47,066 nt of DNA, taken from positions 1-47,066 of the IMG/VR virus record IMGVR_UViG_3300032668_000041. The stretch is one strand, 5' to 3'. This DNA comes from a virus. The notes beneath the pieces were generated by a model that ran no database searches, was not told the DNA's origin, and saw only the letters and a list, made by a program, of their open reading frames with translations. The translations under genes were made by a program, and so were the position numbers. Shown in pieces: positions 18,162 to 32,390 of this stretch; position 1 is the stretch's first letter; each line of letters begins with the position of its first letter.

Positions 18162-18164
18162 GTG

Positions 18165-18743
18165 ATGATTAAACTGACTTATCAACAGGTCGTAGACCTT
18201 AAGCCGTGTTCCGTGTTGAAAATACCTAGCTTCGGCACTCTCCGCACAATGTCGGCTATACAAGCTCTCGACGCTGGCGTGTCGATTAGCGATCTCTTGT
18301 GGGTCGCTGCGAAGCTTGATAGGCAAGACTTGTGCGTTCAGTTTGCGCTAGCGTGCGCTAAGCGTGCGGTTCACTTAAACACTGCCCCGCCTGTGCAGCG
18401 GGCTCTGGACGCGGCACAGGCTTGGTTGGACAACCCGAACCGGGGAACCGCCAACACCGCCGCCGCCGCGTTCAGCGCCGCCAACGCCGCGGCCTACACC
18501 GCCAGCGCCGCCAACGCCGCCGCCAACGCCGCCGCCTACGCCGCGGCCTACACCGCCAACGCCGCCAGCGCCTACACCGCCGCCGCCGCCGCCAGCGCCG
18601 CCAACACCGCCGCCTACGCCGCCAACGCCGCCGCCTACGCCGCCGCCGCGTTCAGCGCCGCCAGTCTTCTCGAAAGAGGCGCGGCGAAAGAACGCGAGCG
18701 AGTTGAACAGCGTAGGATTTTCCTATCAATATTCGGCACCTAA
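18165..18743 (+). CDS. Ala-rich repeat protein, Imm5-like immunity-family type
   Basis: 192 residues. Residues 1-90 form a folded head (QAWLDNP at its end). Residues about 100-165 are a low-complexity run of AAN, AAS, AAY and AAF units from repeated GCCGCC-type DNA. A charged helix (AAKERERVEQRRIF) closes the protein. This layout matches proteins annotated as putative immunity (Imm5-like) in phages and bacteria, whose function in phages is unknown. The ATG with GAGG eight bases upstream is chosen over a GTG one codon earlier. The repeat tract is prone to length changes and to assembly error. Confidence 0.7.
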   Translation: MIKLTYQQVVDLKPCSVLKIPSFGTLRTMSAIQALDAGVSISDLLWVAAKLDRQDLCVQFALACAKRAVHLNTAPPVQRALDAAQAWLDNPNRGTANTAAAAFSAANAAAYTASAANAAANAAAYAAAYTANAASAYTAAAAASAANTAAYAANAAAYAAAAFSAASLLERGAAKERERVEQRRIFLSIFGT

Positions 18744-20103: not shown

Positions 20104-20907
20104 ACCATCGGCGCCAAAAGTGAAGCGGGGATTATTGAGTCCGTCATAAGTTTTTATCCTGGCCTAAAGCCTCGGAGAAGCCCCACAAATCCTAGTGTTC
20201 ACGGTAATCCTTGCTCATTTGCTCTGTACGAAGACGATCTTTCTTCACTTTACGGCCCAAAAGCTGACATTTGTCACGCTTCTGTTGGGTTTAACTATAA
20301 ATTCAAAGATCATTTCATCACGTCCATCCCACTAAAGACGGACTGTGACATTCACTTCATCGTCATGCTGATGAAGTTCCCTTTCAGACAGTGGTCTGAG
20401 AACATCTCGTTAGAGATCAGTGACTCCGGAGAGTTTTATTTAAGGGTCCAGAACGTCAAACAAATCCCCCCACAAGTTCTTTACAACCTAGCTATTGCGA
20501 GCAGAACACCCGTTGAACACGGGTTCTTCTTCTTCAAGAACTGGGCCAAGATGGCTCAAGCTGGTCTAAATCCCATGCTTGCGTTCATCTTATCAACACA
20601 TTCACTTAAGGGAACCCGTAAGAAGGACCCCTTGCAGTGGACTTTTGATAGTGTCGTTGGTGAAGATTGGCATTTCTTCCTCGATCCGACTGTAAATTGG
20701 CAGAATGTGATCGAAAGTAAGGTCACTTTGCATCAATTTGACTCATGTACCCCCTGCAATACCATCTGGGGCGAGTACGATTACCTCTTTTTTGAGTCTT
20801 TGGAGGGTCTAACCCTTCAACAGATCAGCGATAAATTGGGCTATCCAGTCGATCCCAATCCTTCATTTCCACAATATAAGGGTAAAACCTATGTCCGCAA
20901 GGATTAA
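20104..20907 (+). CDS. Unknown protein of the ligase cluster, start codon unresolved
   Basis: The only ATG with a long frame is 20365 (180 residues), but it has no ribosome site. The same frame is open for 87 codons before it, back to the TAA at 20101-20103, and reads as normal protein (HGNPCSFALYEDDLSSLYGP, then FKDHFITSIPLKTDCDIHF), with no ATG, GTG or TTG. Candidates are ATT at 20131 or 20134, or a codon near 20185 that follows GGAG by seven bases. The C-terminal part has HGFFFFKNWAKMAQ. It overlaps the next gene by 17 bases. No family recognised. Confidence 0.65.
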   Translation, partial: TIGAKSEAGIIESVISFYPGLKPRRSPTNPSVHGNPCSFALYEDDLSSLYGPKADICHASVGFNYKFKDHFITSIPLKTDCDIHFIVMLMKFPFRQWSENISLEISDSGEFYLRVQNVKQIPPQVLYNLAIASRTPVEHGFFFFKNWAKMAQAGLNPMLAFILSTHSLKGTRKKDPLQWTFDSVVGEDWHFFLDPTVNWQNVIESKVTLHQFDSCTPCNTIWGEYDYLFFESLEGLTLQQISDKLGYPVDPNPSFPQYKGKTYVRKD

Positions 20908-21568
20908 GTTCTACTCTGAGGGCAGCGACTGGTCCCCCGGAGGCTCTATGAGCGACCTGCTTAACAGGTATAAGGAGTTCGAGGAGGTCTTCACCCCTTC
21001 GATCGCCGACATGATCATTTTCAACGGCGGGGCTGACATTGCCACGTCCATTTACGGCGAAGAGCCGGTGATGCGAGGGATTCCACTAGAAGTTTCCCGG
21101 CGGGACCAACGTGAAATGGACCTGTTCGACGAAGCCGTTGACCGTGGTCTCTTCATGCTCGGTATCTGTCGTGGTGCTCAGCTCCTGAACTGCCTCAATG
21201 GCGGCTCACTCTGGCAACATGTCGACGGACACCACTCGAACCACGATATGTTCGAGATCAAGACGGGTCGCATAATCTACACGACGTCGACTCACCATCA
21301 GCAGATGCGCCCCGCAAAGGGGGCCGAAATTATCTGCGTCGCCAACTGTTCCACGATCAAGCATCGTGACGACGAGAAGAAGGCGTTCGTCAAGCACATG
21401 GATCGTGCGACTGGCGACGACCTTGAGGTCTGCTATTACTCGAAAACTCAGACCTTGTGCATTCAGGGGCATCCCGAGTACGTTCCGTTGTCGGACTTCG
21501 CCAAGTGGTCCGTTGACCTCATCCTTTCCAAATATCATCAGGAGCGTTCCCTATCTGTGGCCTCGTAG
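20891..21568 (+). CDS. Class I glutamine amidotransferase / gamma-glutamyl hydrolase-like (peptidase C26)
   Basis: 225 residues. The nucleophile elbow is GICRGAQ with C93, and the rest of the triad is H194 and E196 in GHPEY. The family hydrolyses glutamine to feed ammonia to a partner, or cleaves gamma-glutamyl bonds as in PuuD. The early FNGGADI motif suits the oxyanion region. It lies directly upstream of a class II amidotransferase and peptide ligases, which suggests processing of glutamyl-linked products or ammonia supply. AAGGG lies seven to eight bases before the ATG. Confidence 0.85.
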   Translation: MSARIKFYSEGSDWSPGGSMSDLLNRYKEFEEVFTPSIADMIIFNGGADIATSIYGEEPVMRGIPLEVSRRDQREMDLFDEAVDRGLFMLGICRGAQLLNCLNGGSLWQHVDGHHSNHDMFEIKTGRIIYTTSTHHQQMRPAKGAEIICVANCSTIKHRDDEKKAFVKHMDRATGDDLEVCYYSKTQTLCIQGHPEYVPLSDFAKWSVDLILSKYHQERSLSVAS

Positions 21569-22677
21569 GAATAGCGGGCGACACAGGGTACGGTCGCTAC
21601 AAAGATATGTTCACCGACTTGTTGGTCGTTGACTCCATCCGTGGGATGCACTCCACGGGCGTTGCTTTCATCTCACGCTACAAGCTCGACTCTAACAAGG
21701 TCCTCAAGTGCGTGGGTCCGGCAACCAATCTCGTTCTCACCAAAGAGTACGAGGAGACCGCACGTAAGTCCGCCATGTGCATCATCGGCCACAATCGCTA
21801 TGCGACCAAGGGCGAGATCACGGTGGACAATGCTCACCCGTTCCAATTTGAGCATATCATCGGCGCTCACAACGGCACCCTCGACTATCAGGCGTGGAAG
21901 TGTCTGTACGAGAACGAGAAGTACGGCACCGACAGTCAAGCCGTCTATTCACACCTGAACCAATACGGTTTGCGGGAAACCGTTGACCAACTGCAAGGTG
22001 CATGGGCTCTCACTTGGTACGATCAAAGGGACCACACCCTGAATTTCCTCCGCAACGAGAAGCGGCCCCTGCACTACGCCTACTCTAAAGACCACACGAC
22101 CATCGTATGGGCCAGCGAATACTCCATGCTGGAGTTCATCATGGCTCGCTACGGCTTCAAGTCCGACGGCAAGGTCTATATGGCCGAGGAGGACAAGCAC
22201 ATTCGTTGGGAAATTCCTTTTGGGGCCAACGAAAAGATCAAGGGACCTTTCATGACGGAGATGAAGGCTCTTCCCGAACGCCCAAAATCGTGGATCGCCT
22301 GGGAGGGCGAAACGTATTACGGGTCAAATCTAAATCACGGGCACAGCTACGACGTGAACAGAAAGCACGACGCAAGCAATTCAAGCTCAGTAAAAAAGGC
22401 CAGTGAGGAAGACGCTCCCTGGGAAGACCTGCTGAAGAACCGTGTGGACACCAAGAAGTTCAGGCCTCCCTATAAGCGACTGAATGGCACCATCATCAAC
22501 AAGGAACTTTTCAATGGGTACGTGGCCGATGGCTGCGTCTTCTGCGACAACCATGACATCCCTTGGGGCGAGTTCATTCTCCCCCTGAAGGACGACATGG
22601 ACGGACGACGTATTTTCATGTGTGAGGATTGTTACAACGACGACAGCAACTTCGAATGTCTTCAATGGATGATTTAA
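21553..22677 (+). CDS. Class II (Ntn) glutamine amidotransferase, ATC start
   Basis: 374 residues if started at ATC 21553. The next codon is the catalytic Cys of the canonical start CGLVGIAGD, which must become residue 1 of the mature enzyme. AGGAG lies eight bases before ATC. The first ATG (21607) would remove the nucleophile. Other class II motifs are GMHSTG, GHNRYATKG, AHNGTLDY and a GTDSQAV segment. A C-terminal zinc-ribbon-like part has CVFC and CEDC. It probably releases ammonia from glutamine for amide synthesis in the adjacent ligase pathway. It overlaps the upstream gene by 16 bases. Confidence 0.85.
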   Translation: MCGLVGIAGDTGYGRYKDMFTDLLVVDSIRGMHSTGVAFISRYKLDSNKVLKCVGPATNLVLTKEYEETARKSAMCIIGHNRYATKGEITVDNAHPFQFEHIIGAHNGTLDYQAWKCLYENEKYGTDSQAVYSHLNQYGLRETVDQLQGAWALTWYDQRDHTLNFLRNEKRPLHYAYSKDHTTIVWASEYSMLEFIMARYGFKSDGKVYMAEEDKHIRWEIPFGANEKIKGPFMTEMKALPERPKSWIAWEGETYYGSNLNHGHSYDVNRKHDASNSSSVKKASEEDAPWEDLLKNRVDTKKFRPPYKRLNGTIINKELFNGYVADGCVFCDNHDIPWGEFILPLKDDMDGRRIFMCEDCYNDDSNFECLQWMI

Positions 22678-22678
22678 C

Positions 22679-22990
22679 TTGCGTGTCAAATGCGGGACGC
22701 AAGTCGGCGAGCTAACCAGTTTACCTGGGTGTTCCCAAATCGCTGTGTCTCATGATGTTTATTCAACTGCTAAGGGACAAGGGACTGGGTCAGAAGCTAA
22801 TAACCTTCGAATAGCTCTATGTCGTCAATTAGGTTATGACGTACTGCTATGTACTTCTGATCTTGCAAATTCATCTCAGATTTCGATCTTAAAGAAGAAC
22901 AGGTGGACAATGGCTTTTGTTTTTGCATCTTCAAAAACCCAGCACAATGTTGGGCTGTTCTATAAACGTCTGAATGTAGATATAGAATGA
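22679..22990 (+). CDS. GNAT-like acetyltransferase
   Basis: 103 residues from a TTG start with only a weak ribosome site. The segment KGQGTGSEANNLRI resembles the acetyl-CoA pyrophosphate-binding motif A (Q/R-x-x-G-x-G/A), followed by a YDVLLCTSDLANSSQI strand/helix typical of the later GNAT motif. It is short for the family (usually 140 or more) but looks complete at the C-terminus. In the cluster it could acetylate a ligase product. The stop overlaps the next ATG. Confidence 0.55.
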   Translation: MRVKCGTQVGELTSLPGCSQIAVSHDVYSTAKGQGTGSEANNLRIALCRQLGYDVLLCTSDLANSSQISILKKNRWTMAFVFASSKTQHNVGLFYKRLNVDIE

Positions 22991-23814
22991 CGACACCTAA
23001 AATCCTCGTGGGGGCAGACCCCGAACTCTTCATGAAGAATGCCAACGATGGCAGCTTTGTGTCCGCCCATGACCGTGTTCCTGGGACCAAGTACAAGCCG
23101 TTCAAGGTTGAACATGGGGCTGTCCAGATCGACGGCACCGCTCTGGAGTTCAACATCGACCCGGCCGCCACGGTGGACGAATTCGTTCGCAACATCAAGG
23201 CGGTTCGCAAGTCCTTGGAAGGCTTCGTGCCGGGCTACAACGTCGTGGCTGAGCCGGTGGCGCTCTACAACAAGAAGTATTTCCTGCACGACATCCCCGG
23301 CTACGCGAAGACCCTGGGCTGTGATCCGGACTACAACGCCTGGACCATGGATCAGAACCCTCCGCCGAACGCCGGCAAGACCCCGATGCGGACTGGCGCT
23401 GGCCATATCCATATCGGCTGGACCGATGGCGCTGACATCAACGACACCGAACACTACATCATGGCGTGTCGGATCGCTCGTCAGTGCGACTACTACCTCG
23501 GTATCCAATCCCTGCTCTGGGATGCGGACCCGACCCGACGCCTGCTCTACGGCAAGGCCGGCGCTTTCCGACCCAAGCACTACGGGGTCGAATATCGGAC
23601 GCTCAGCAACCGCTGGCTCGCGTCTGACGGCTTGACCAAGTGGGTCTACAACGCCGCTGTGTTGGCCACCAAGGACGCCTTCGGAGGCTTCTGGGCGGAA
23701 GACTCTTACGGCGACACGGCTCGCGAGATCATCGACACCAACAACACCGAGTGGTTCAACGACTATCAGTTCGACCTCGGCCTTGAAGGACTTCCGGTCG
23801 ATGTTGCTGTATGA
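22987..23814 (+). CDS. phiEco32-like COOH-NH2 ligase (type 2)
   Basis: 275 residues. GADPELF near the N-terminus, an ALEFNIDPA strand, AGHIHIGW in the middle and GVEYRTLSNRW near the C-terminus match the glutamine-synthetase-fold COOH-NH2 ligase family first noted in phiEco32-like phages. Such enzymes join a carboxylate to an amine using ATP. The Glu and His residues in these motifs would bind metal and nucleotide. The substrate is unknown. It forms a dense operon (overlaps of 4 and 14 bases) with a second amidoligase and an ATP-grasp enzyme. Confidence 0.85.
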   Translation: MTTPKILVGADPELFMKNANDGSFVSAHDRVPGTKYKPFKVEHGAVQIDGTALEFNIDPAATVDEFVRNIKAVRKSLEGFVPGYNVVAEPVALYNKKYFLHDIPGYAKTLGCDPDYNAWTMDQNPPPNAGKTPMRTGAGHIHIGWTDGADINDTEHYIMACRIARQCDYYLGIQSLLWDADPTRRLLYGKAGAFRPKHYGVEYRTLSNRWLASDGLTKWVYNAAVLATKDAFGGFWAEDSYGDTAREIIDTNNTEWFNDYQFDLGLEGLPVDVAV

Positions 23815-24418
23815 CAACTTTGAGGATTGTAAGGCCAAACTCGGTCAGACAATCATCTACTACAAGGGTAAGGCTGCCTATGTCAAAGACATCCAACCCA
23901 TCCCCAACGAAGCGGGGGACGTTTACATCGACTACAATCTGACACTTGCCTTCGTGGACAAGCGCAATATGCAGAAGGTGAAGCTGTCCGAAGCGGACAG
24001 TCTGAACTATCTGAAGTACCAACTCGGATACTGCAACTTCCACGGCACGGCTATTTACTGGTATCGCAAGCCGGTGAAGCAGTACAAGCAAGGGCTTAAG
24101 GCCGATCAAATGCACTACAAGATCACCAACCCGAACCTTATGCTGCACGATCAACCGTGGAACTTCACCCGGCCTATCATCGACATGCTGGAGGGTCGTT
24201 ATCCAACTGTCAAGGAGGCCGCTGAACTTCTGAAGAACGGTGCGGCTGTCATCCTGGCGTTCCACAAAGACTTTGCCATTGCTCACAACCCCGTTTTCGA
24301 TGAATTCGAACTGGAATACAAGGGTACGAAGATCGGTCGCACTCCTGACTTTGTGAATGTCAATCTCACCGACAAGTACGCCTATGTCAAAGAAGCACTG
24401 ATGGAGGCAGTCGCGTAG
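23801..24418 (+). CDS. Unknown protein of the amidoligase cluster
   Basis: 205 residues from ATG 23801 (MLLYDNFEDCKAKLGQTIIY). The N-terminal part has short beta strands (IIYYKGKAAYVKDIQ) like a small barrel. The rest is mixed, with an HDQPWNFTRPI motif. No family recognised. Its position between the two amidoligases, overlapping the first by 14 bases and abutting the second, makes it likely to be part of the same pathway, perhaps a substrate carrier or a recognition subunit. Confidence 0.75.
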   Translation: MLLYDNFEDCKAKLGQTIIYYKGKAAYVKDIQPIPNEAGDVYIDYNLTLAFVDKRNMQKVKLSEADSLNYLKYQLGYCNFHGTAIYWYRKPVKQYKQGLKADQMHYKITNPNLMLHDQPWNFTRPIIDMLEGRYPTVKEAAELLKNGAAVILAFHKDFAIAHNPVFDEFELEYKGTKIGRTPDFVNVNLTDKYAYVKEALMEAVA

Positions 24419-25642
24419 ATGTACACCAAGCCTATGCCTCTTGACCGAGGACTGGACGAAGAAATCCCCATTCATCCCCTTGCGCAACAGCACAAGGATG
24501 CTTTCGGGATTGAAATCGAGCTGGAAGGTCTGAACATTCGGACTGAAAAGCCGAATGTTCGCAAACTGTGGGGGATGCACGAAGACGGCTCCCTCCGGGC
24601 TCAGATCGCTGGCAGAGCCGGTGGTGTTGGTCAGACGTGTGAATACGTCTCGATCACTCCGTTGACCGAGGAGCAAGCGCTTGAGAGCTTGAAGACTTTG
24701 TTTGATTTCCTTACCAGTCCGGATGTGACTGTCTTCCCGTCCTACAGAACGTCAATCCATGTGCACGTCAACTGCGCCAGGGAAACGTGGAGGACGATCT
24801 ACAACTATATCACTCTGGCCATCATCTTCGACGAACTGTTCGTCAGCCAGAGTGGGGAACACCGGATCGGGAACAATTTCTGTCTGCGTTTTGTTGACGC
24901 CGAAGCTCCGGTTGAAGAGTTGGCCAAATCCATAGCCCAGTACGGGAACCTCAAGGGTGTCCCGCAGCACATGCGCTACAGCTCGACGAACTTCGCGTCG
25001 CTCTACAAGTTCGGGACCGTTGAGTTCCGTTCCATGGAGTGTCACACGGACTTCGAACGGGTCAAGAAGTGGATCAAGACGTTGCAGAAGCTGAAGGAAT
25101 CTGCCCGGGAGTTCCGAACTCCGCAGGACATCATCAACCTCTTCAGTCAATACAACGAGACTGAATTTGGTGTTCACATTCTGGGCAAGGACTTCACCCA
25201 ATTCGTCGAAACCCCCGATTACAAGAAGATGTTGCGTCGGGGTATGCGTCTCGCACAAGATTTCGCCTACGCGTCAACCTGGGAGGCCCAGACAAAGGCC
25301 ACAGAGTTGGAGCAACGCGCTGAGTACGAGAAGCAAATGGCGGCCATGAAGAAGAAGGTCGCCAAGCAAGCCTTACAGTGGGCGGAGCCTGGGGTCCCCC
25401 AGCCAATGCCCATGCCTAACTTCGCCATCCCGGTTCCCCCTGTGGGCTTTGCCGGTGGTGCGCAACTTGGGCAAGGATGGGCTCAAATGAACCAGTACAT
25501 TCAAGCTGATGCCGCTATGGCTCATATCAATCAGATCAACTACGCCGCTCAACCCCAACCTGAAGTCGTCGACTTTGATGATGATGAAGATCATGATGTC
25601 GAAGACTTCGACGAGGATCACGACGATGACGATTTGGATTGA
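24419..25642 (+). CDS. Amidoligase (Amidoligase_2-type) with Asp-rich C-terminal tail
   Basis: 407 residues. FGIEIELEG, HEDGSLR, TCEYVS, SIHVHVN and VEFRSM are the strand motifs of the glutamine-synthetase-fold amidoligases, with metal- and ATP-binding Glu and His. After about residue 300 come a Lys-rich coiled coil, a Pro/Met-rich linker (VPQPMPMPNF) and a tail of about 24 residues that is almost only Asp and Glu with a few His. Such tails occur in proteins that are glutamylated. GGAGG lies eleven bases before the ATG. It overlaps the ATP-grasp gene by 17 bases. Confidence 0.82.
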   Translation: MYTKPMPLDRGLDEEIPIHPLAQQHKDAFGIEIELEGLNIRTEKPNVRKLWGMHEDGSLRAQIAGRAGGVGQTCEYVSITPLTEEQALESLKTLFDFLTSPDVTVFPSYRTSIHVHVNCARETWRTIYNYITLAIIFDELFVSQSGEHRIGNNFCLRFVDAEAPVEELAKSIAQYGNLKGVPQHMRYSSTNFASLYKFGTVEFRSMECHTDFERVKKWIKTLQKLKESAREFRTPQDIINLFSQYNETEFGVHILGKDFTQFVETPDYKKMLRRGMRLAQDFAYASTWEAQTKATELEQRAEYEKQMAAMKKKVAKQALQWAEPGVPQPMPMPNFAIPVPPVGFAGGAQLGQGWAQMNQYIQADAAMAHINQINYAAQPQPEVVDFDDDEDHDVEDFDEDHDDDDLD

Positions 25643-26366
25643 TACGGCTGGTCGGCCGTCCAATGGTGCGAAAGTGCTTGCGGACAATCCGGGCTTCAAA
25701 CGCAATCTGACCTACAAGTTCATCAAACCGGGTGACACTGTGGTGAACTGGGGATCATCGAAGATGAAGCCTCTGCCTGAATGTCAAGTGCTCAACATGC
25801 CGTCTGCTGTGGCGGCTGCTGCCAACAAGCTCGTCGCCTTCGGGGAGATGGGCACCAAGGACGTCACGACCGTGGAATGGACGTCCAATCGTGAGATCGC
25901 TCAGAAGTGGTCAACCGACGGTTACACTGTTGTTGTCAGAAATAAGTTGACAGGCCATTCTGGTGATGGTATAATCATCATAGAGAAAGGAGAAGAAGTT
26001 CCTCAAGCTCCTCTCTATTCCAAGTACATCTTTAAGGTTAAGGAGTTCAGGGTTCATGTTGTCAACGGTCAAGTGATCGACACACAACAGAAGATCAGGG
26101 ATCCCGAAAAGACCCCTTCAATTTGGAAGGTTCGTTCTCATGAGAATGGCTTTATGTACGTTCGCAATAATGTCGAGGCCAATTCCAGCCGCGATGATCT
26201 TGCGATTACTGCGATGGTGGCGCTCAATCTAGACTTTGGGGCCGTCGACATCATCGAAGACAAACACGGCCACTTCTATGTGCTTGAGATCAACACCGCT
26301 CCGGGTCTTGAAGGTCAGACCCTAACTAATTATTTGGAGGCCTTCAAGGCATGTCAGCAACACTAA
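25626..26366 (+). CDS. ATP-grasp peptide ligase (RimK-like)
   Basis: 246 residues from ATG 25626, with GAGGA eight bases upstream. The frame also extends upstream through the antisense-free overlap with the amidoligase tail, but that part is low-complexity and lacks a ribosome site. The ATP-grasp signature is a VVVRNKLTGHSGDGIII loop, a YIFKVKEFRVHVV strand, and GAVDIIEDKHGHFYVLEIN with the metal-binding Glu and Asn. RimK-like enzymes add amino acids to carboxyl groups. A consensus promoter lies inside the gene at 25947. Confidence 0.82.
   Translation: MTIWIDTAGRPSNGAKVLADNPGFKRNLTYKFIKPGDTVVNWGSSKMKPLPECQVLNMPSAVAAAANKLVAFGEMGTKDVTTVEWTSNREIAQKWSTDGYTVVVRNKLTGHSGDGIIIIEKGEEVPQAPLYSKYIFKVKEFRVHVVNGQVIDTQQKIRDPEKTPSIWKVRSHENGFMYVRNNVEANSSRDDLAITAMVALNLDFGAVDIIEDKHGHFYVLEINTAPGLEGQTLTNYLEAFKACQQH
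25947..25975 (+). promoter_or_regulatory. Perfect consensus sigma70 promoter inside the ATP-grasp gene
   Basis: TTGACA (25947-25952), a 17-base spacer ending TGG, and TATAAT (25970-25975). Both hexamers and spacing are ideal. It points at the genes from 26351 on (ThyX, primase-helicase, polymerase) and could start a separate replication transcript. The protein sequence across it (KLTGHSGDGIII) is the conserved ATP-grasp loop, so the match may partly reflect codon choice. Confidence 0.75.
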
Positions 26367-26788
26367 AGGCCCGGCTTAAGTTCCGGGACGGCCTTCCTTG
26401 GAAGCTCCAGAAGCACATCACCGACAAGTATGGTTATGTCTTCGACGAGCGTGTCTTTCAAAAGCATGTGATCCTGAAAAAGCCTGTGAAGTTCATCATG
26501 GGCCATGCGCCGGCAAGGGGGACTATGGCACCGGCTGATAAGGTTGCCACGTTTCTCGCCCCAGCCCAACAGCAACCGAGCTTACCTCTTGTCACTCCCG
26601 ACGCGTTGACTGCGAACGATAAGATCGAGCTGGGAAGGAAGTGTATGGCCATCAAGGCCAACTTTCACGACCCATCAGCTAGCGCTGCTATGATCCGCTT
26701 TCGGATCGGTGAAATGGCCCGACCCCTGAACAGAGAGCAGAAGAACTTCTGTCAGGAGTGGGCAGACAGGAACGTGGATGCGTTGTAA
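26351..26788 (+). CDS. Hypothetical protein
   Basis: 145 residues, overlapping the ATP-grasp gene by 16 bases, with GGAGG ten bases before the ATG. The N-terminal half is basic (LKARLKFRDGLPWKLQKHI); a Pro/Gln-rich linker leads to a helical C-terminal domain (MIRFRIGEMARPLNREQKNF). No family recognised. It is the first gene after the internal promoter at 25947. Confidence 0.7.
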   Translation: MSATLKARLKFRDGLPWKLQKHITDKYGYVFDERVFQKHVILKKPVKFIMGHAPARGTMAPADKVATFLAPAQQQPSLPLVTPDALTANDKIELGRKCMAIKANFHDPSASAAMIRFRIGEMARPLNREQKNFCQEWADRNVDAL

Positions 26789-26990
26789 ATTGTGCGACGC
26801 CGAGGACAACACGATCTCGTGGGACCCGGTGAAGAAGGATTTTACGGATTGCCAAGAATGTCAATCGGTCATTCAGGAAGCCCTGGACGACTTCGCTGAA
26901 GAGGAGGACGAAGACGAAAGTAAACCTGAATTGGATCACGCCAAAGGCAGACCAAAATCTCGCCTACATGGCTCGGGTGTCCAACCCTAA
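26778..26990 (+). CDS. Small zinc-ribbon protein with acidic linker
   Basis: 70 residues. CKLC near the start (C3, C6) and CQEC about twenty residues later form a CxxC-CxxC zinc site. Then comes a strongly acidic stretch (EEEDEDESKPELD) and a basic end. Its 3' third overlaps the start region of thyX by 77 bases, and the acidic codons supply the GAGGAGG ribosome site for thyX. Possible roles are nucleic acid or protein contact; unknown. Confidence 0.7.
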   Translation: MRCKLCDAEDNTISWDPVKKDFTDCQECQSVIQEALDDFAEEEDEDESKPELDHAKGRPKSRLHGSGVQP

Positions 26991-27561
26991 AGCGACACCC
27001 GACGATCCTTCTGCGAAACTCATTAAGTATTTGATCGACCACAAGCACTGGTCGCCATTTGAAATGGTCTGCATGTGTGTGGAAATTCATACCACGCGTG
27101 ACATCGCCAGACAAATCCTCCGGCATCGAGCCTTCCATTTCCAAGAGTTCAGTCAACGGTACTCCGTGGTTGATGAGGAGCCGGAACTTTCCCCCGAAGC
27201 ACGACTACAAGACTCGAAGAACCGACAGAACTCCATCCCCGTTGACGATGACATCAAGAATGGGTATTGGCTTGACCTTCAAAATAAGGTCTGGGACTTC
27301 TGTTGGGTGGCGTACAAGGCGGCTCTGGCTGTCGGTATCGCCAAGGAGCTGGCCAGAAAGCTCCTTCCTGAGGGTCTGACCAAGACGCACATGTACATGC
27401 AAGGGACTATCCGTGACTGGCTGCACTATGTGGCCATCCGCACTGGTCCTGAGACACAACGTGAGCACCGTGACATTGCCTTCACCATTGAAAACTTCCT
27501 TGCCTCTGAGTGTCCAGACACCTACAAGGCCGCCTGTCAATCAGGGCTGCTGAAAGGATAA
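26914..27561 (+). CDS. thyX: Flavin-dependent thymidylate synthase ThyX, ACG start
   Basis: 215 residues if started at ACG 26914. The ThyX signature RHR-x7-S is present (R70, H71, R72, S80 by this start). The family N-terminus, M-K-V-x-L-x-x-I-T-P followed by an A-Y-M-A-R-V-S helix, is encoded upstream of the first ATG (26968), which falls inside that helix. AGGAGG ends six bases before ACG. The enzyme makes dTMP from dUMP with FAD, NADPH and methylene-folate. It is part of the nucleotide block with the deaminase and RNR. Confidence 0.85.
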   Translation, partial: TKVNLNWITPKADQNLAYMARVSNPKATPDDPSAKLIKYLIDHKHWSPFEMVCMCVEIHTTRDIARQILRHRAFHFQEFSQRYSVVDEEPELSPEARLQDSKNRQNSIPVDDDIKNGYWLDLQNKVWDFCWVAYKAALAVGIAKELARKLLPEGLTKTHMYMQGTIRDWLHYVAIRTGPETQREHRDIAFTIENFLASECPDTYKAACQSGLLKG

Positions 27562-27563
27562 CT

Positions 27564-28115
27564 ATGACGAAGGCATCACAAGTGAAGCCAGCTAAGATCA
27601 TCTTCCTCGACATCGATGGACCAATGATCCCCTACCGGGCGATGTTTCTGCCCGGCCAAACTCGCGTTATGACGGTGTTCGATCCGATTGCCGTCAGCTT
27701 CATCAACAATCTCTGCAAAGAGCATGGTTGGAAGGTCGTCCTCCACTCGTCCTGGATCAGGATCATGGGTGGTGAGTACACCCTGAACCACTGCATCAAT
27801 CAGGGTATCAAGGCGGAACACTTCCATGCTGATGCGTATTGCGATGAAAACATCAACTGGCGCTACACTCGTGTGGCCAAGTGGCTTAAGGACCATCCGG
27901 AAGTCACAGAATATGCCATCGTGGATGATGAGCCTTACCAAGACGATATTGAGTATTCGTCCGTTGCGTATCCTGATGGTATGAGTCTGCATATGGTCCT
28001 CGTCCATTACTATAACGGTTTCCTGTTCTCAACCTACAATGATATCCTTGCTCAAGGCAAATCGGAAGCTCCGGACGCCCCTCACCCGCGTTACCATATT
28101 GAGGACGACGACTGA
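27564..28115 (+). CDS. HAD-superfamily phosphatase-like protein
   Basis: 183 residues from ATG 27564, with AAAGGA just upstream. Motif I is FLDIDGPM (D-x-D), motif II is VLHSSW (Ser), and an acidic motif IV is AIVDDEPYQDD. These are the catalytic features of HAD phosphohydrolases, here of the short-capped type found in phages. Possible roles are nucleotide dephosphorylation or nucleic-acid end repair. The tail ends EDDD. It overlaps the next start (TGATG). Confidence 0.75.
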   Translation: MTKASQVKPAKIIFLDIDGPMIPYRAMFLPGQTRVMTVFDPIAVSFINNLCKEHGWKVVLHSSWIRIMGGEYTLNHCINQGIKAEHFHADAYCDENINWRYTRVAKWLKDHPEVTEYAIVDDEPYQDDIEYSSVAYPDGMSLHMVLVHYYNGFLFSTYNDILAQGKSEAPDAPHPRYHIEDDD

Positions 28116-28258
28116 TGGAAGATGACGTGGAATTGGAGATGGATTGTGATTGTCGTGAAGATAGTGATGAGCACGATCCTGGAGCTTACGAGTATCTTTG
28201 CAGGGGTTGCGGCGTTACTGTGGCTGCTGAAGACAGTGCATGGTGCGATGACTGCTGA
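28115..28258 (+). CDS. Tiny acidic zinc-finger-like protein
   Basis: 47 residues, starting inside the HAD stop (TGATG). It has CDC near residues 11-13, CRGC at 29-32 and CDDC at 44-47, so up to six cysteines that could bind zinc, and many Asp/Glu. It overlaps the start of the next gene by 11 bases. Too short for family assignment; the cysteine spacing and tight coupling argue that it is real. Confidence 0.6.
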   Translation: MEDDVELEMDCDCREDSDEHDPGAYEYLCRGCGVTVAAEDSAWCDDC

Positions 28259-28457
28259 TCCTCTAGAGCAAGGCGGCAAGCTCACAAGTTTCGACTACAC
28301 CTTTCTTAAGGGCGACGAAGAAGAATGGCCCTGTTGGGGTGCGGCTATGTCCGTAGTCATGGAGTATTGTCGAGGACAGGGGTTGGGCAGCTTCGGCAGT
28401 CCGACTTACAAGGGCCTCAGGAAGATGGAGGAATATGAGCGGGAGAACTTGGGTTAG
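28248..28457 (+). CDS. Hypothetical protein
   Basis: 69 residues starting MTADPLEQGG. It contains GDEEEWPCWGAAMSVVMEYC and ends with a charged helix (GLRKMEEYERENLG). The frame is open upstream to about 28122, where it would be a hydrophobic extension, but that region already encodes the zinc-finger-like gene. No family recognised. Its end overlaps the metallophosphoesterase gene by 23 bases. Confidence 0.6.
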   Translation: MTADPLEQGGKLTSFDYTFLKGDEEEWPCWGAAMSVVMEYCRGQGLGSFGSPTYKGLRKMEEYERENLG

Positions 28458-28977
28458 CGCGGACCACCACTTCGGTCATGCGAACATCCTAAACTTCAAA
28501 AGGGACGACGACACTCTGTTGCGTCCAGGATTTAAGGACATAGATGAGCATGATCAGTGTCTTATTGCAGCCCACAATTCAGTTGTGGACCACGGTGATC
28601 GAGTATACCTTCTTGGCGATGTCTGTATTAATCGCCGTTATCGTCATCTCCTTGGCCAGCTTAATGGTCGTCTGGTGCTGGTCAAAGGCAACCACGATAT
28701 TTTCAAGATCAATGACTACCTTCCGTTCTTTGACGACATCAGGTCGTACGTTGTTCAGAAGGACAAAGACGGCAACAAGGTAATACTGTCTCACATTCCA
28801 ATCCACCCTGACAGTATGGAGCGCTTCGGCACAAACATCCATGGGCACACCCATTACCAGAGTGTGAAAAACGATGCTCGATACGTGTGTGTGAGCATGG
28901 AGCACCTCCCTGACTACAAGCCAATCCAAATTCATCAGGCACTTAGCCTGCGAGGCGTGCGGGAGCTCGGACGCTAA
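28435..28977 (+). CDS. Metallophosphoesterase
   Basis: 180 residues. Calcineurin-like motifs in order: SADHHFGH (D-x-H), GDRVYLLGDV (G-D), KGNHD (G-N-H-D), LSHIPIHP (H) and NIHGHTHYQS (G-H-x-H). These bind two metals and hydrolyse phosphomonoesters or phosphodiesters. Similar short enzymes occur in many phages. Its 3' end overlaps the true start of the primase-helicase by 68 bases. Confidence 0.85.
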   Translation: MSGRTWVSADHHFGHANILNFKRDDDTLLRPGFKDIDEHDQCLIAAHNSVVDHGDRVYLLGDVCINRRYRHLLGQLNGRLVLVKGNHDIFKINDYLPFFDDIRSYVVQKDKDGNKVILSHIPIHPDSMERFGTNIHGHTHYQSVKNDARYVCVSMEHLPDYKPIQIHQALSLRGVRELGR

Positions 28978-30541
28978 CAGTCTATACGACGACGGGCACA
29001 CTCACTGTTTCGGGTGTGGTGACACCGTCTTTCCAGATAACAAGAGGGATGATCGCATCTCCAGCGAACCTAAAGAGCTGACCCAATTGGGCAAGCACTT
29101 TTCGGGGCTTGAGGATCGGAAGATCGCTCGTGGCTCCGCAGAGAAGTACGGAATTTGGCGTGAAAACGGTAAGACGTTCTTCCCCTACTTCAACGACAAC
29201 AAGCACCTTGCCAACAAAGTTCGGCACGGTGACAAGGAGTACTACAATGAGGGTGATCTCAAGCATTCTGGACTCTTCGGAAGCCAGCTATTCCCCGCCG
29301 GCTCTGCTAAGTTCATTACGTTGGTCGAAGGTGAATATGACGCCCCCGCCGCCTTCGAGCTTATGGGTTCTCGCTGGCCTGTTGTGTCTGTACGCAATGG
29401 AGCTGATGGAGCGGCTAAGTGTGTAGCCGACAATTTTGAGTACCTCAACTCCTTCTCGAACATTGTCATCTGTTTTGATAAAGACCAACCGAAGGTCCAT
29501 CCCGTTACCGGACAGATCAGGTATCCTGGACAAGAGGCTGCTGTGGCTGTGGCCGGTATGTTCCCTATCGGTAAAGTCAAGGTCCTCACTCTAGCGGAGC
29601 ACAAGGACGCAAACGACTATCTCAAGGCTGGAATGCGAGAGCAGTTCAATCGTGAGTGGTGGGGTGCGCCGGTCTTTACACCTACAGGCCTCAAGTTGGG
29701 GCGTGAAATGTGGGACGAGATCAGCACACCAAAAAACTATAAGACCGTCCCGTACCCGTGGGATGGTATGAACGACCAGACTTACGGAATTCGGTTGTCC
29801 GAGTTGGTTGTTGTGACCGCTGAAACGGGCGTGGGTAAGACGTCGTTCTTGAAAGAGATCGTCTTCAATATCCGCAAGGTTGACCCCGAAGCGGGGGTTG
29901 GACTGATGATGCTTGAGGAGCCTAACTCCGACACAGCCCTTGGTCTGATGTCTATCGAGGCCAATCTACCACTTCACCTCCCCGACGTTAGGGAGACCGT
30001 TACCACCGATGACTTGCGTAAATATTATGACGCAGTTATCAACACCGACAAGTTGGTTCTGTTCGACCACTTCGGGTCCAATAACATTCAAGAGATTTTG
30101 AATAAAGTCAGACACATGGCCAACCTTGGCTGCCAATACATAATTCTGGACCACTTGTCCATTGTTGTGTCTGACCAATCTGGTGATGAGCGGAAGCAGT
30201 TGGATGAGATTTCCACAAAGATCAAAACCCTTTGTATGGAACTGAACATCTCTGTGATTGCCGTAATCCATCAGAACCGCCAAGGACAAATCAGAGGTAC
30301 TGCGGGTGTTGAACAGCTCGCCAATATTGTCATCAAGCTTCATAGGGAGAAGCTGAGCGAAGACCCGTGGAGACGGAATGTCACTAAAGCAGTTGTTGAG
30401 AAAAATCGATTTTGTGGGAGGACTGGTCCTGCCGCTTACCTTCATTTTAACGAGCATACTGGCCGTCTGGAGCCTCTCCTCGACGACCAAGTAAAGGTGT
30501 ACAACGCAGGCGGTAACGCGGATGTGGATGTGTGGTCTTAA
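28910..30541 (+). CDS. T7 gp4-like primase-helicase, CTG start
   Basis: 543 residues if started at CTG 28910, close to T7 gp4 (566). The zinc-binding domain that reads the primer template is C14, C17, C33, C36 (CEACGSSD, then HTHCFGCG). It lies upstream of the first ATG (29087), and an in-frame stop closes the frame just before CTG with no canonical start between. GGAG lies seven bases before CTG. TOPRIM (VEGEYD, E140), Walker A ETGVGKT (305-311), Walker B YIILDHLSI and the C-terminal RFCGRTG segment follow T7. Starting at 29087 would give a primase-defective helicase like gp4B. Confidence 0.92.
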   Translation: MTTSQSKFIRHLACEACGSSDANSLYDDGHTHCFGCGDTVFPDNKRDDRISSEPKELTQLGKHFSGLEDRKIARGSAEKYGIWRENGKTFFPYFNDNKHLANKVRHGDKEYYNEGDLKHSGLFGSQLFPAGSAKFITLVEGEYDAPAAFELMGSRWPVVSVRNGADGAAKCVADNFEYLNSFSNIVICFDKDQPKVHPVTGQIRYPGQEAAVAVAGMFPIGKVKVLTLAEHKDANDYLKAGMREQFNREWWGAPVFTPTGLKLGREMWDEISTPKNYKTVPYPWDGMNDQTYGIRLSELVVVTAETGVGKTSFLKEIVFNIRKVDPEAGVGLMMLEEPNSDTALGLMSIEANLPLHLPDVRETVTTDDLRKYYDAVINTDKLVLFDHFGSNNIQEILNKVRHMANLGCQYIILDHLSIVVSDQSGDERKQLDEISTKIKTLCMELNISVIAVIHQNRQGQIRGTAGVEQLANIVIKLHREKLSEDPWRRNVTKAVVEKNRFCGRTGPAAYLHFNEHTGRLEPLLDDQVKVYNAGGNADVDVWS

Positions 30542-30542
30542 T

Positions 30543-32390
30543 ATGATTACATATTTGCCTGAACCACGAGATTACCACAAATATTGGGTAATTGATATTG
30601 AGACCGAACTCATTCCAGCTAATGGGCCTATAGGGGTTCAGAAGATTTGGATGATGTGCGCTTCTCGTATGGACCAAGAAGAGGTTTATTCTTTTGTAGG
30701 ACACGAAGAGATCAGGAGGTTCTTCGATGAGCTTCGCGGCAAAGAGGTATATTTTGTCGGTCATAATGCGATTTCGTTCGACGGGCCGGTTACTGCACGA
30801 CTTGTCAATGGACTTGCTAACACTTCTAACATTGTTGATACTCTGGTTCTCAGTTACCTCTATAATCCTGCTATGCCTGGTGGCCATTCCCTTGAAGCTT
30901 GGGGTGAACGCTTCAAGTACAGTAAAGGCTCTTTTTCAGACTGGTCTGGGTACTCTAAAGAAATGGAAGTCTACTGTATCCAAGATGTGAAGTTAACTAA
31001 GAAAGTCGCCAAAGCTCTTTGGGCACGGATGAAACGCTATGGTTATAGTGAGAAGTCCTGTCAGATTGAGCATGAAATTAGAGAGGTGCTTGATGAGCAA
31101 CAGAATAACGGATGGTCATTTGACATCCCAGGCGCGCAGGCTCTTTCTTCTCTCATCCGAGCTGAGCAGTCTGACCTTGAGCCTAGTATTCGAAGTCTCT
31201 TCCCTGCGCAGCTTGAAGAACAGGGAACGTACATTAGAAGAACTAAACTTGATGGAACTGATTTTGCTTCATATGATCGACATTGTAGGGACTATCCTAA
31301 GCTCCACGACAACGGAGATGGGACGTACACAACCCTAGCTTATGAAGACTTCAACATTGGCTCACCAAAGCAACGCGTCAAACGCCTGCTGAGCCTAGGC
31401 TGGGAGCCCGTTAACTTCACTGAGAACGGTTTCCCAAAGGTTGATGAAGACACCCTTGTAGCGTTCGCAGAAGCCTCTGGACGTCGGGAAGCGCAGGCAA
31501 TCGCTGACTGGCTGGTTCTCCAAGGTCGAGCTTCAATGATTGAAGGGTGGCTGAACAACGTAAACTATGAAGACCATTGTATGCACGGCAAGGTCTTGAC
31601 ATGTGCGGCAACTACTCGTCGGATGATCCACAGTAGTCCGAACACGGCTAACATCCCCAAAGCCAAGAAGAAGGTCAAGTATGGCATTGAATGTCGACGT
31701 CTTTGGAGAGCCCGACCAGGGCGAACTCAAGTTGGAGACGATGCCTCTGGACTTGAGATGCGCATGTTTGCTCAGTATCTTAACAATCCAGAAGCAACTC
31801 TACTCTTCACCGTCGGGGACCCACATATTAACAACACTCGAAACCTCGGACTACCAGATGAGATGCGCGACCTCACGGTCAAGAATGGATTTTACGCCTA
31901 TCTGTACGGAGCTGGAGATGCTAAGCTCGGGGTCACTCTTAAACCTGAACTTCAAGGGGATGAGCGTGGACAATATGGTCGATCAGCTCGTAGCATCCTT
32001 GAGCAAGGAACTCCCGGACTTGCACGACTCGTGGCTCAGATCGGGGCAGAGTTTAGTCAGACTGGAGGAATGCTTAAGACAATCGATGGAGGGTATGTTC
32101 GATGTCCTTCGGTTCGAGCAGCACTCAACTACAAACTGCAATCTGCTGGCGCTATAGTCTGCAAGGAAGCGGCTATCATTGCTCGACGTAAAATCAGAGA
32201 GCGTGGACTTGATGCTCTTCTGGTTGGTACAATCCATGATGAGAAGCAAAATGATTGCGACACGAAAGATGCAATCGAAGTGGGCGAAGTTAACAAAGCG
32301 GCGTATGGTGAAGCCGGGGAGGTGTTGGGATTTCACGTCCCACTCACCGGAGAGTACAAACTCGGAGCCAACTGGGCAGAGTGTCACTGA
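30543..32390 (+). CDS. T7-like family A DNA polymerase
   Basis: 615 residues (T7: 704). Proofreading exonuclease motifs: DIETE (D18, E20), GHNAISFD and YCIQDVKLT. Polymerase motif A is DASGLEMRMFA; motif B runs RDLTVKNGFYAYLYGAG with the usual Arg, Lys, Tyr and Gly; motif C is IHDEKQ. All catalytic acids are present. The start ATG follows the helicase stop by one base; the ribosome site is weak, so translation is probably coupled. The thioredoxin-binding loop could not be judged. Confidence 0.95.
   Translation: MITYLPEPRDYHKYWVIDIETELIPANGPIGVQKIWMMCASRMDQEEVYSFVGHEEIRRFFDELRGKEVYFVGHNAISFDGPVTARLVNGLANTSNIVDTLVLSYLYNPAMPGGHSLEAWGERFKYSKGSFSDWSGYSKEMEVYCIQDVKLTKKVAKALWARMKRYGYSEKSCQIEHEIREVLDEQQNNGWSFDIPGAQALSSLIRAEQSDLEPSIRSLFPAQLEEQGTYIRRTKLDGTDFASYDRHCRDYPKLHDNGDGTYTTLAYEDFNIGSPKQRVKRLLSLGWEPVNFTENGFPKVDEDTLVAFAEASGRREAQAIADWLVLQGRASMIEGWLNNVNYEDHCMHGKVLTCAATTRRMIHSSPNTANIPKAKKKVKYGIECRRLWRARPGRTQVGDDASGLEMRMFAQYLNNPEATLLFTVGDPHINNTRNLGLPDEMRDLTVKNGFYAYLYGAGDAKLGVTLKPELQGDERGQYGRSARSILEQGTPGLARLVAQIGAEFSQTGGMLKTIDGGYVRCPSVRAALNYKLQSAGAIVCKEAAIIARRKIRERGLDALLVGTIHDEKQNDCDTKDAIEVGEVNKAAYGEAGEVLGFHVPLTGEYKLGANWAECH

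Follow-up and report, generated by a model that had tools for sequence, protein, structure and literature searches.

A putative amide-ligation module of lytic phages with alternating C26 and GGCT enzymes and a recurrent AUU/AUC start codon

The published cassette and the module of the window

Several phages carry a set of ligase and amidotransferase genes ahead of their primase/helicase gene that has been titled a putative “peptidoglycan modification cassette” (Hardies et al. 2013 and Iyer et al., as quoted in PMC5498523 and PMC11945000). The cassette is ascribed to RIO-1/PSA-HP1, phiEco32, PA11, LUZ24, tf, PaP3, and CW02 (Hardies et al. 2013), and the role suggested for it is a stop to superinfection or a preparation for lysis (PMC5498523, PMC11945000). 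No functional test of the cassette is reported in PMC5498523 or PMC11945000. The locus described here lies at positions 20104-26366 on the + strand of an IMG/VR virus record of 47,066 bases (IMGVR_UViG_3300032668_000041, the whole of which is called the window). It is a further member of the early-region ligation module known from Zobellviridae, phiEco32-like, and LUZ24-like phages.

The window shares with the published cassette both amidoligase families, the ATP-grasp ligase, the class-II glutamine amidotransferase (GATase), and the place before the primase/helicase. Its COOH-NH2 ligase and Amidoligase_2 genes are separated by one small gene, its RimK-like ATP-grasp and class-II GATase (GAT2) genes lie within one cluster, and the whole is located 5′ of primase/helicase and DNA polymerase genes. 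The gamma-glutamyl-cleaving enzyme of the cassette is represented by a class-I GATase of the Peptidase C26 family (GAT1), which stands in place of gamma-glutamyl cyclotransferase (GGCT), as in PA11. The window further differs from the published cassette in an extra GNAT-like open reading frame (ORF) and in an acidic tail on the amidoligase. Four points are new here: the alternation between C26 and GGCT enzymes, the recurrent AUU/AUC start of GAT2, the tail that is found on one of two proteins, and the upstream protein (UPA) as the usual seventh member. The genes of the module are as follows.

20104-20907, + strand: UPA, seventh module member; start codon uncertain, homologs sit directly 5′ of GAT1
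20891-21568, + strand: GAT1, class-I GATase/Peptidase C26 with a PuuD-like gamma-glutamyl hydrolase fold (PF07722, E=3.5e-17)
21540-21555, + strand: start region of GAT2 as read from the sequence, Shine-Dalgarno AGGAG at 21540-21544, 8-nt spacer, ATC at 21553-21555
21553-22677, + strand: GAT2, class-II (Ntn) glutaminase with a C-terminal four-Cys segment (PF13522, E=2.4e-16; phrog_4736, E=1.7e-72)
22679-22990, + strand: GNAT-like accessory ORF with a TTG start (PF00583 matched only through the homolog in locus L022)
22987-23814, + strand: COOH-NH2 ligase type 2 with a glutamine-synthetase-like fold (PF14395, E=2.4e-9; phrog_3815, E=1.6e-79)
23801-24418, + strand: phrog_11055 protein, ATG start at 23801 (phrog_11055, E=1.6e-29)
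24419-25642, + strand: Amidoligase_2 with a Pro/Gln-rich linker and an acidic C-terminal tail (PF12224, E=1.4e-13)
25559-25639, + strand: D/E-rich tail of the amidoligase, PEVVDFDDDEDHDVEDFDEDHDDDDLD; in relatives the tail is on the amidoligase or on UPA
25626-26366, + strand: RimK-like ATP-grasp ligase (PF08443, E=2.6e-7; phrog_2599, E=4e-75)

A first-pass annotation had named these genes from the sequence, and all of them are present on the + strand, mostly overlapping. The PHROG E-values of the six core genes span 1e-29 to 1e-79, far past chance. Three gene bounds were corrected, namely the GAT2 start (ATC at 21553), the ATP-grasp coding sequence (25626-26366), and the start of the phrog_11055 gene (ATG at 23801).

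Distribution and conservation

A tblastn search of 50,697 phage records detects the amidoligase in 311 of them and the COOH-NH2 ligase in 317. The module thus occurs in more than 300 GenBank phage records, including phages of Pseudomonas aeruginosa, Escherichia coli, Vibrio, and Klebsiella, some of which are phage-therapy candidates. Its core consists of six genes (class-I GATase, class-II GATase, COOH-NH2 ligase, phrog_11055, Amidoligase_2, and RimK-like ATP-grasp) whose co-occurrence is almost invariable. Profiles detect the COOH-NH2 ligase and the phrog_11055 protein in all 85 loci, window included, GAT2 in 84, the amidoligase in 83, the ATP-grasp in 82, and GAT1 in 76, and many of the absences coincide with contig ends. 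In a scan of 84,980 species genomes, the ligase appears in only 11 short contigs, all from metagenome-assembled genomes. The module is therefore essentially confined to lytic phages, and cellular context is of no help in assigning its function.

The Zobellviridae PA11, T5S1, CW02, and CVT22 match the window in core gene content and order (GAT1, GAT2, COOH-NH2 ligase, phrog_11055, amidoligase, ATP-grasp), with small extra ORFs interspersed. They differ from the window in sequence, with 22-51% amino-acid identity per protein, and T5S1 and CW02 additionally have GGCT. The same parts, reordered in some, also occur in phiEco32, LUZ24, RIO-1, BUCT695, Privateer, BA6, and Slicky01. The first-pass annotation had taken the second amidoligase and the presence of both amidotransferase types for additions made in this phage, which is incorrect because PA11, T5S1, CW02, and CVT22 share the identical set. 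An enlarged module is likewise rejected, as the same parts form the standard set of the 85 loci. Seven of the related loci, which are numbered with an L in this comparison, contain two ATP-grasp matches each, the first preceding GAT2 and the second following the amidoligase (L039, L044, L049, L067, L069, L077, and L079).

The GNAT-like ORF was considered as a core gene and rejected, being present in 3 of 85 loci. Its homologs are limited to L022 and L038, where they sit at different positions in the cluster, and it is therefore an accessory gene. The GNAT label itself finds no direct match in the window protein and draws weak support from the L022 homolog, which matches PF00583 at E=3e-4.

Invariant residues were defined from alignments of about 40 sequences per family, and the window proteins retain them. 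The GAT1 triad Cys93-His194-Glu196 is intact and invariant in 39 of 39 sequences. GAT2 contains Cys2, Arg30, Arg82, Asn107, Gly108, and Asp127, which are equally invariant (39/39), and keeps the four cysteines of its C terminus (CxxC...CxxC). The COOH-NH2 ligase retains GxDPE, ExN, R, GHxH, and EYR, the Amidoligase_2 retains ExExE, HxHxN, R, and ExR, and the ATP-grasp retains its Glu/Arg/Lys/Asp/Glu/Asn set. At the level of sequence the active sites are thus not degenerate, the earlier view of a multi-enzyme amide/peptide ligation module holds, and the copy in the window is complete and apparently functional.

The nearest solved relatives of GAT1 are Lin1909 and PuuD (profile match to PDB 6vtv, E=7e-9). 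GAT2 is closest to the glutaminase domains of GFAT and PurF. It shares with GFAT, after which its PHROG is named, the class-II glutaminase domain with an N-terminal Cys; the SIS isomerase domains of GFAT were not found in the window protein, which matches only GATase families and then continues into the four-Cys segment. The ATP-grasp is nearest to RimK and alpha-L-glutamate ligase (E about 2e-10 to 2e-9 against the PDB) and shares the RimK ATP-grasp domain (PF08443 above cut-off) with the enzyme that glutamylates S6. Profiles of the COOH-NH2 ligase, Amidoligase_2, and phrog_11055 gave no significant match to PDB sequences. The module differs from the MurT-GatD system of lipid II amidation, which pairs a GATase_3 (GatD) with a Mur ligase (MurT), in that the window GAT1 belongs to PF07722 and that a Mur-ligase domain is absent from the cluster proteins.

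The GAT1/GGCT alternation

Whole-record searches with PF06094 and the GAT1 profile were reduced to 92 near-complete, nonredundant records; L077 and L148, which lack both enzymes, were left out, as their contigs end near the cluster. GAT1 alone is present in 57 records, GGCT alone in 20, both in 15, and neither in none (Fisher p=4e-11, a raw value that is uncorrected for shared ancestry). In phiEco32-like and LUZ24-like phages GAT1 is absent and GGCT is present, and no GGCT (PF06094) was found in the window. RIO-1 and Slicky01 carry GGCT directly 5′ of GAT2, which is the usual place of GAT1. The presence of GAT1 requires 4 changes on the tree and that of GGCT 13, with GGCT in every lineage that lacks GAT1. 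The catalytic Glu of GGCT (LEGY) is kept in 61 of 62 sequences.

The C26 and GGCT enzymes are unrelated, yet cleavage of gamma-glutamyl amides is established in both families, for PuuD and for GGCT/BtrG. Since two such families alternate, the most parsimonious interpretation is a pathway with a gamma-glutamyl bond that would have to be removed or trimmed. This lends indirect support to the “glutamyl-linked” product that had been proposed from the sequence of the window. It also makes the question of the product testable, through a gamma-glutamyl intermediate and through interchange of the two enzymes.

Several points weigh against this reading. Independent losses of GAT1 are few (3-4 pairs), so that the phylogenetic sign test is without power, most GGCT-only records belong to one or two clades, and 15 records carry both enzymes. 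True glutamine amidotransferases exist among C26 relatives, and GAT1 could supply ammonia instead. The strongest competing account follows from here: GAT1 and GAT2 would be two ammonia suppliers, GGCT an unrelated glutathione scavenger, and the alternation an accident of clades. The scarce GAT1 losses and the records with both enzymes speak for it, as does the activity of GGCT-family enzymes on glutathione. It does not readily explain why 0 of 92 records lack both enzymes, why the labile GGCT (13 changes) comes and goes beside GAT1 but is never missing where GAT1 is, or why it occupies the GAT1 slot in RIO-1 and Slicky01. We consider this account improbable.

Proposed reactions and target

The best explanation of the module is an ATP-dependent gamma-glutamyl/amide ligation with a step that removes the gamma-glutamyl group, a reading that we see as about evenly poised between right and wrong. 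GAT2, whose catalytic residues are intact, would hydrolyze glutamine to ammonia and glutamate. The two ligases of glutamine-synthetase fold and the RimK-like ATP-grasp would then make successive ATP-dependent amide bonds, as their folds suggest. The acceptor would be an amine or a peptide, and at least one of the bonds would be of the gamma-glutamyl type. Finally, GAT1, as a C26 hydrolase-like enzyme, would trim or remove the gamma-glutamyl group, and GGCT would do so in other phages; the two genes do alternate, and the chemistry that they are predicted to share would make them interchangeable. The module also holds an obligate partner, the phrog_11055 protein, and a usual one, UPA. No assay of a module enzyme was found in the literature consulted, which has to be set against this scheme.

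The target may be an envelope component such as a peptidoglycan precursor, modified for superinfection exclusion or lysis. This is the published proposal and the likeliest single guess, which we hold tentatively and with less than even confidence, protein tagging and a free metabolite being serious rivals. Nothing in the sequence marks peptidoglycan as the acceptor.

The ligation and removal steps have parallels in small-molecule pathways. In Puu putrescine utilization, a ligase of glutamine-synthetase fold (PuuA) is likewise paired with a C26 gamma-glutamyl hydrolase (PuuD). The window ligases, however, belong to other families of this fold (PF14395 and PF12224), with no match to the PuuA-type glutamine-synthetase family; a PuuB/PuuC-like gene was not recognized in the module, and the module adds an ATP-grasp and a class-II GATase. 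In butirosin side-chain assembly, an ATP-grasp enzyme (BtrJ) carries out the ligation and a GGCT (BtrG) then takes off the gamma-glutamyl group. The module differs in that no acyl carrier protein was found in it and that GGCT is present in only part of the phages.

By the logic of PuuA/PuuD and BtrJ/BtrG, the product could be a free small molecule or peptide (an inhibitor, metabolite, or signal) that is made through gamma-glutamyl-protected intermediates, and the GAT1/GGCT interchange fits such a route. A carrier protein, an oxidase, or a transporter was not recognized in the module, however, and every part could act just as well on a macromolecule. A free product is a doubtful candidate.

The start codon of GAT2

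In relatives with an ATG start, GAT2 opens with Met-Cys-Gly, and Cys2 is the nucleophile. In the window, an ATC stands directly 5′ of the Cys2 codon and follows an AGGAG at a distance of 8 nt; no in-frame ATG, GTG, TTG, or CTG was found between this ATC and the preceding stop codon. Of 132 anchored loci, 25 have ATT (18 loci) or ATC (7 loci) before the catalytic Cys (near-copies are counted, and one of 133 records, with ATG before an extra codon, is omitted). In 119 of 120 distinct, uncut GAT2 genes, the codon at this place is ATG, ATT, ATC, TTG, GTG, or CTG. A canonical start is wholly absent in 16 of these 120 genes, whereas four other module genes always have one (0 of 457 without), and no AUU/AUC start was found in those four.

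Genes with ATT or ATC have a stronger Shine-Dalgarno sequence, with at least five matches in 17 of 25 versus 22 of 108 (p=9e-6). On a tree of 72 records the ATT/ATC state needs about 14 changes, so that neither sequencing error nor a single ancestor is sufficient to explain it. The AUU/AUC start of GAT2 evolved repeatedly.

AUU/AUC starts are known from very few genes (infC and pcnB), where they limit or regulate translation. GAT2 resembles infC and pcnB of E. coli in the use of a rare AUU start in a particular gene; the difference is that the gene is a phage glutaminase gene in which AUU or AUC has arisen repeatedly, with some 14 changes on the tree. No relevant report of an AUU start in a phage gene emerged from a literature search. 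By analogy, the AUC start may keep the GAT2 glutaminase low or regulated. The start also has a practical side, as automatic gene calling can drop the catalytic Cys. In the isolate phage O4, which has ATC, the GenBank protein AMO43531.1 starts downstream and lacks Cys2. GAT2 expressed from such a misannotated gene would be dead, which is relevant to anyone who clones the module.

UPA, the phrog_11055 protein, and the acidic tail

An iterated profile of UPA gives 77 matches across 171 loci, and UPA homologs lie directly 5′ of GAT1 in most Zobellvirid-like loci. A Cys (CHA), an Arg and a Glu (RxxxE), and a His (GH) are invariant in 38 sequences, which suggests that UPA is an enzyme. Its AlphaFold2 model has a predicted local distance difference test (pLDDT) score of 86.8. 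Structural matches are uncharacterized phage proteins only, some from CVT22, CW02, GAP52, and crAss-like phages, and the model found no relative in the PDB. The first ATG, GTG, or TTG of the window gene is at 20365, yet homology extends about 230 bases further 5′, to about 20131; the start may be noncanonical, or the gene may be degenerate at its 5′ end in the window. In BFVD, the UPA fold also weakly matches the crAss-like phage proteins cr108_1 and ctelJ1. From the modeled folds, crAss-like phages might carry a related pathway.

The phrog_11055 gene always lies between the two ligases and is present in 85 of 85 loci. In phiEco32, LUZ24, and RIO-1 it is located at this place as well, the LUZ24 and RIO-1 matches being weak. 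The AlphaFold2 model (pLDDT 92.8) has EF-P as its best PDB match (E=0.046), which is too weak for a function to be assigned from structure.

The acidic tail of the second amidoligase, already noted in the first-pass annotation, is genuine (25559-25639). Such a tail is located on the amidoligase in the window, L007, L013, and L017 and on UPA in L006, L010, L011, L012, and L014. Both proteins are present in 93 loci; the tail is on the amidoligase in 13 of these, on UPA in 7, and on the two together in none, compared with 30 of 2152 other proteins of at least 150 residues. The significance of this mutual exclusion is modest (0 of 20 on both, with roughly 1 expected). Several of the D/E-rich tails end in Phe, like SSB tips.

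The tails bear on a protein-tagging alternative, in which acidic C-terminal tails of host or phage proteins would be extended with glutamate or short peptides by the RimK-like ATP-grasp, and GAT1 or GGCT would trim these additions. The kinship of the ATP-grasp with RimK and alpha-L-glutamate ligase fits, and the tails shift between module subunits in close relatives. The weakly EF-P-like fold of the phrog_11055 protein (E=0.046) points the same way, as EF-P is a modified translation protein, and a role in modifying proteins has been suggested for related ATP-grasp operons, phage ones included (PMC4431377). However, the tail is found in a minority of loci only, a target motif is not known, and two ligases of glutamine-synthetase fold plus a glutaminase exceed the needs of simple glutamylation. 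Tagging is rather unlikely to be the purpose of the module.

A more elaborate version of gamma-glutamyl ligation and removal is conceivable as a long shot. A pathway exclusive to lytic phages would ligate and then remove gamma-glutamyl groups on a phage-encoded carrier, the mobile acidic tail, with a product that is not known in bacteria and a glutaminase dose that is set by the AUU/AUC start.

Modification of phage DNA or nucleotides against restriction, which the first-pass annotation had listed as a defense of phage DNA, is very improbable: the module adjoins primase/helicase and DNA polymerase genes (29087-32390) and its acidic tails resemble SSB-type tips by inspection, but no DNA-modification enzyme is seen among its proteins, and the DNA of module-bearing phages is cut normally, that of the LUZ24-like phage U17 by 11 of 16 enzymes (PMC11945000) and that of phage tf by HaeIII, RsaI, HpaI, EcoRV, and SmaI (PMC3517423).

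Neighboring genes

The ATP-grasp gene is overlapped by one further gene, which is found in 14 loci.

26351-26788, + strand: small protein 3′ of the ATP-grasp, kept in near relatives only

The replication genes downstream of the module encode a DnaB_C/Toprim protein (29087-30541) and PolA (30522-32390). Between the module and these genes, at 26968-28977, lie genes for ThyX, an HAD_SAK_2 phosphatase-like protein, and a metallophosphoesterase, which recur nearby in 11-22 relatives. An ORF at 18162-18743 contains a long Ala-rich repeat (AANAAAYTA-like) with a GC content of up to 76%, unlike its surroundings.

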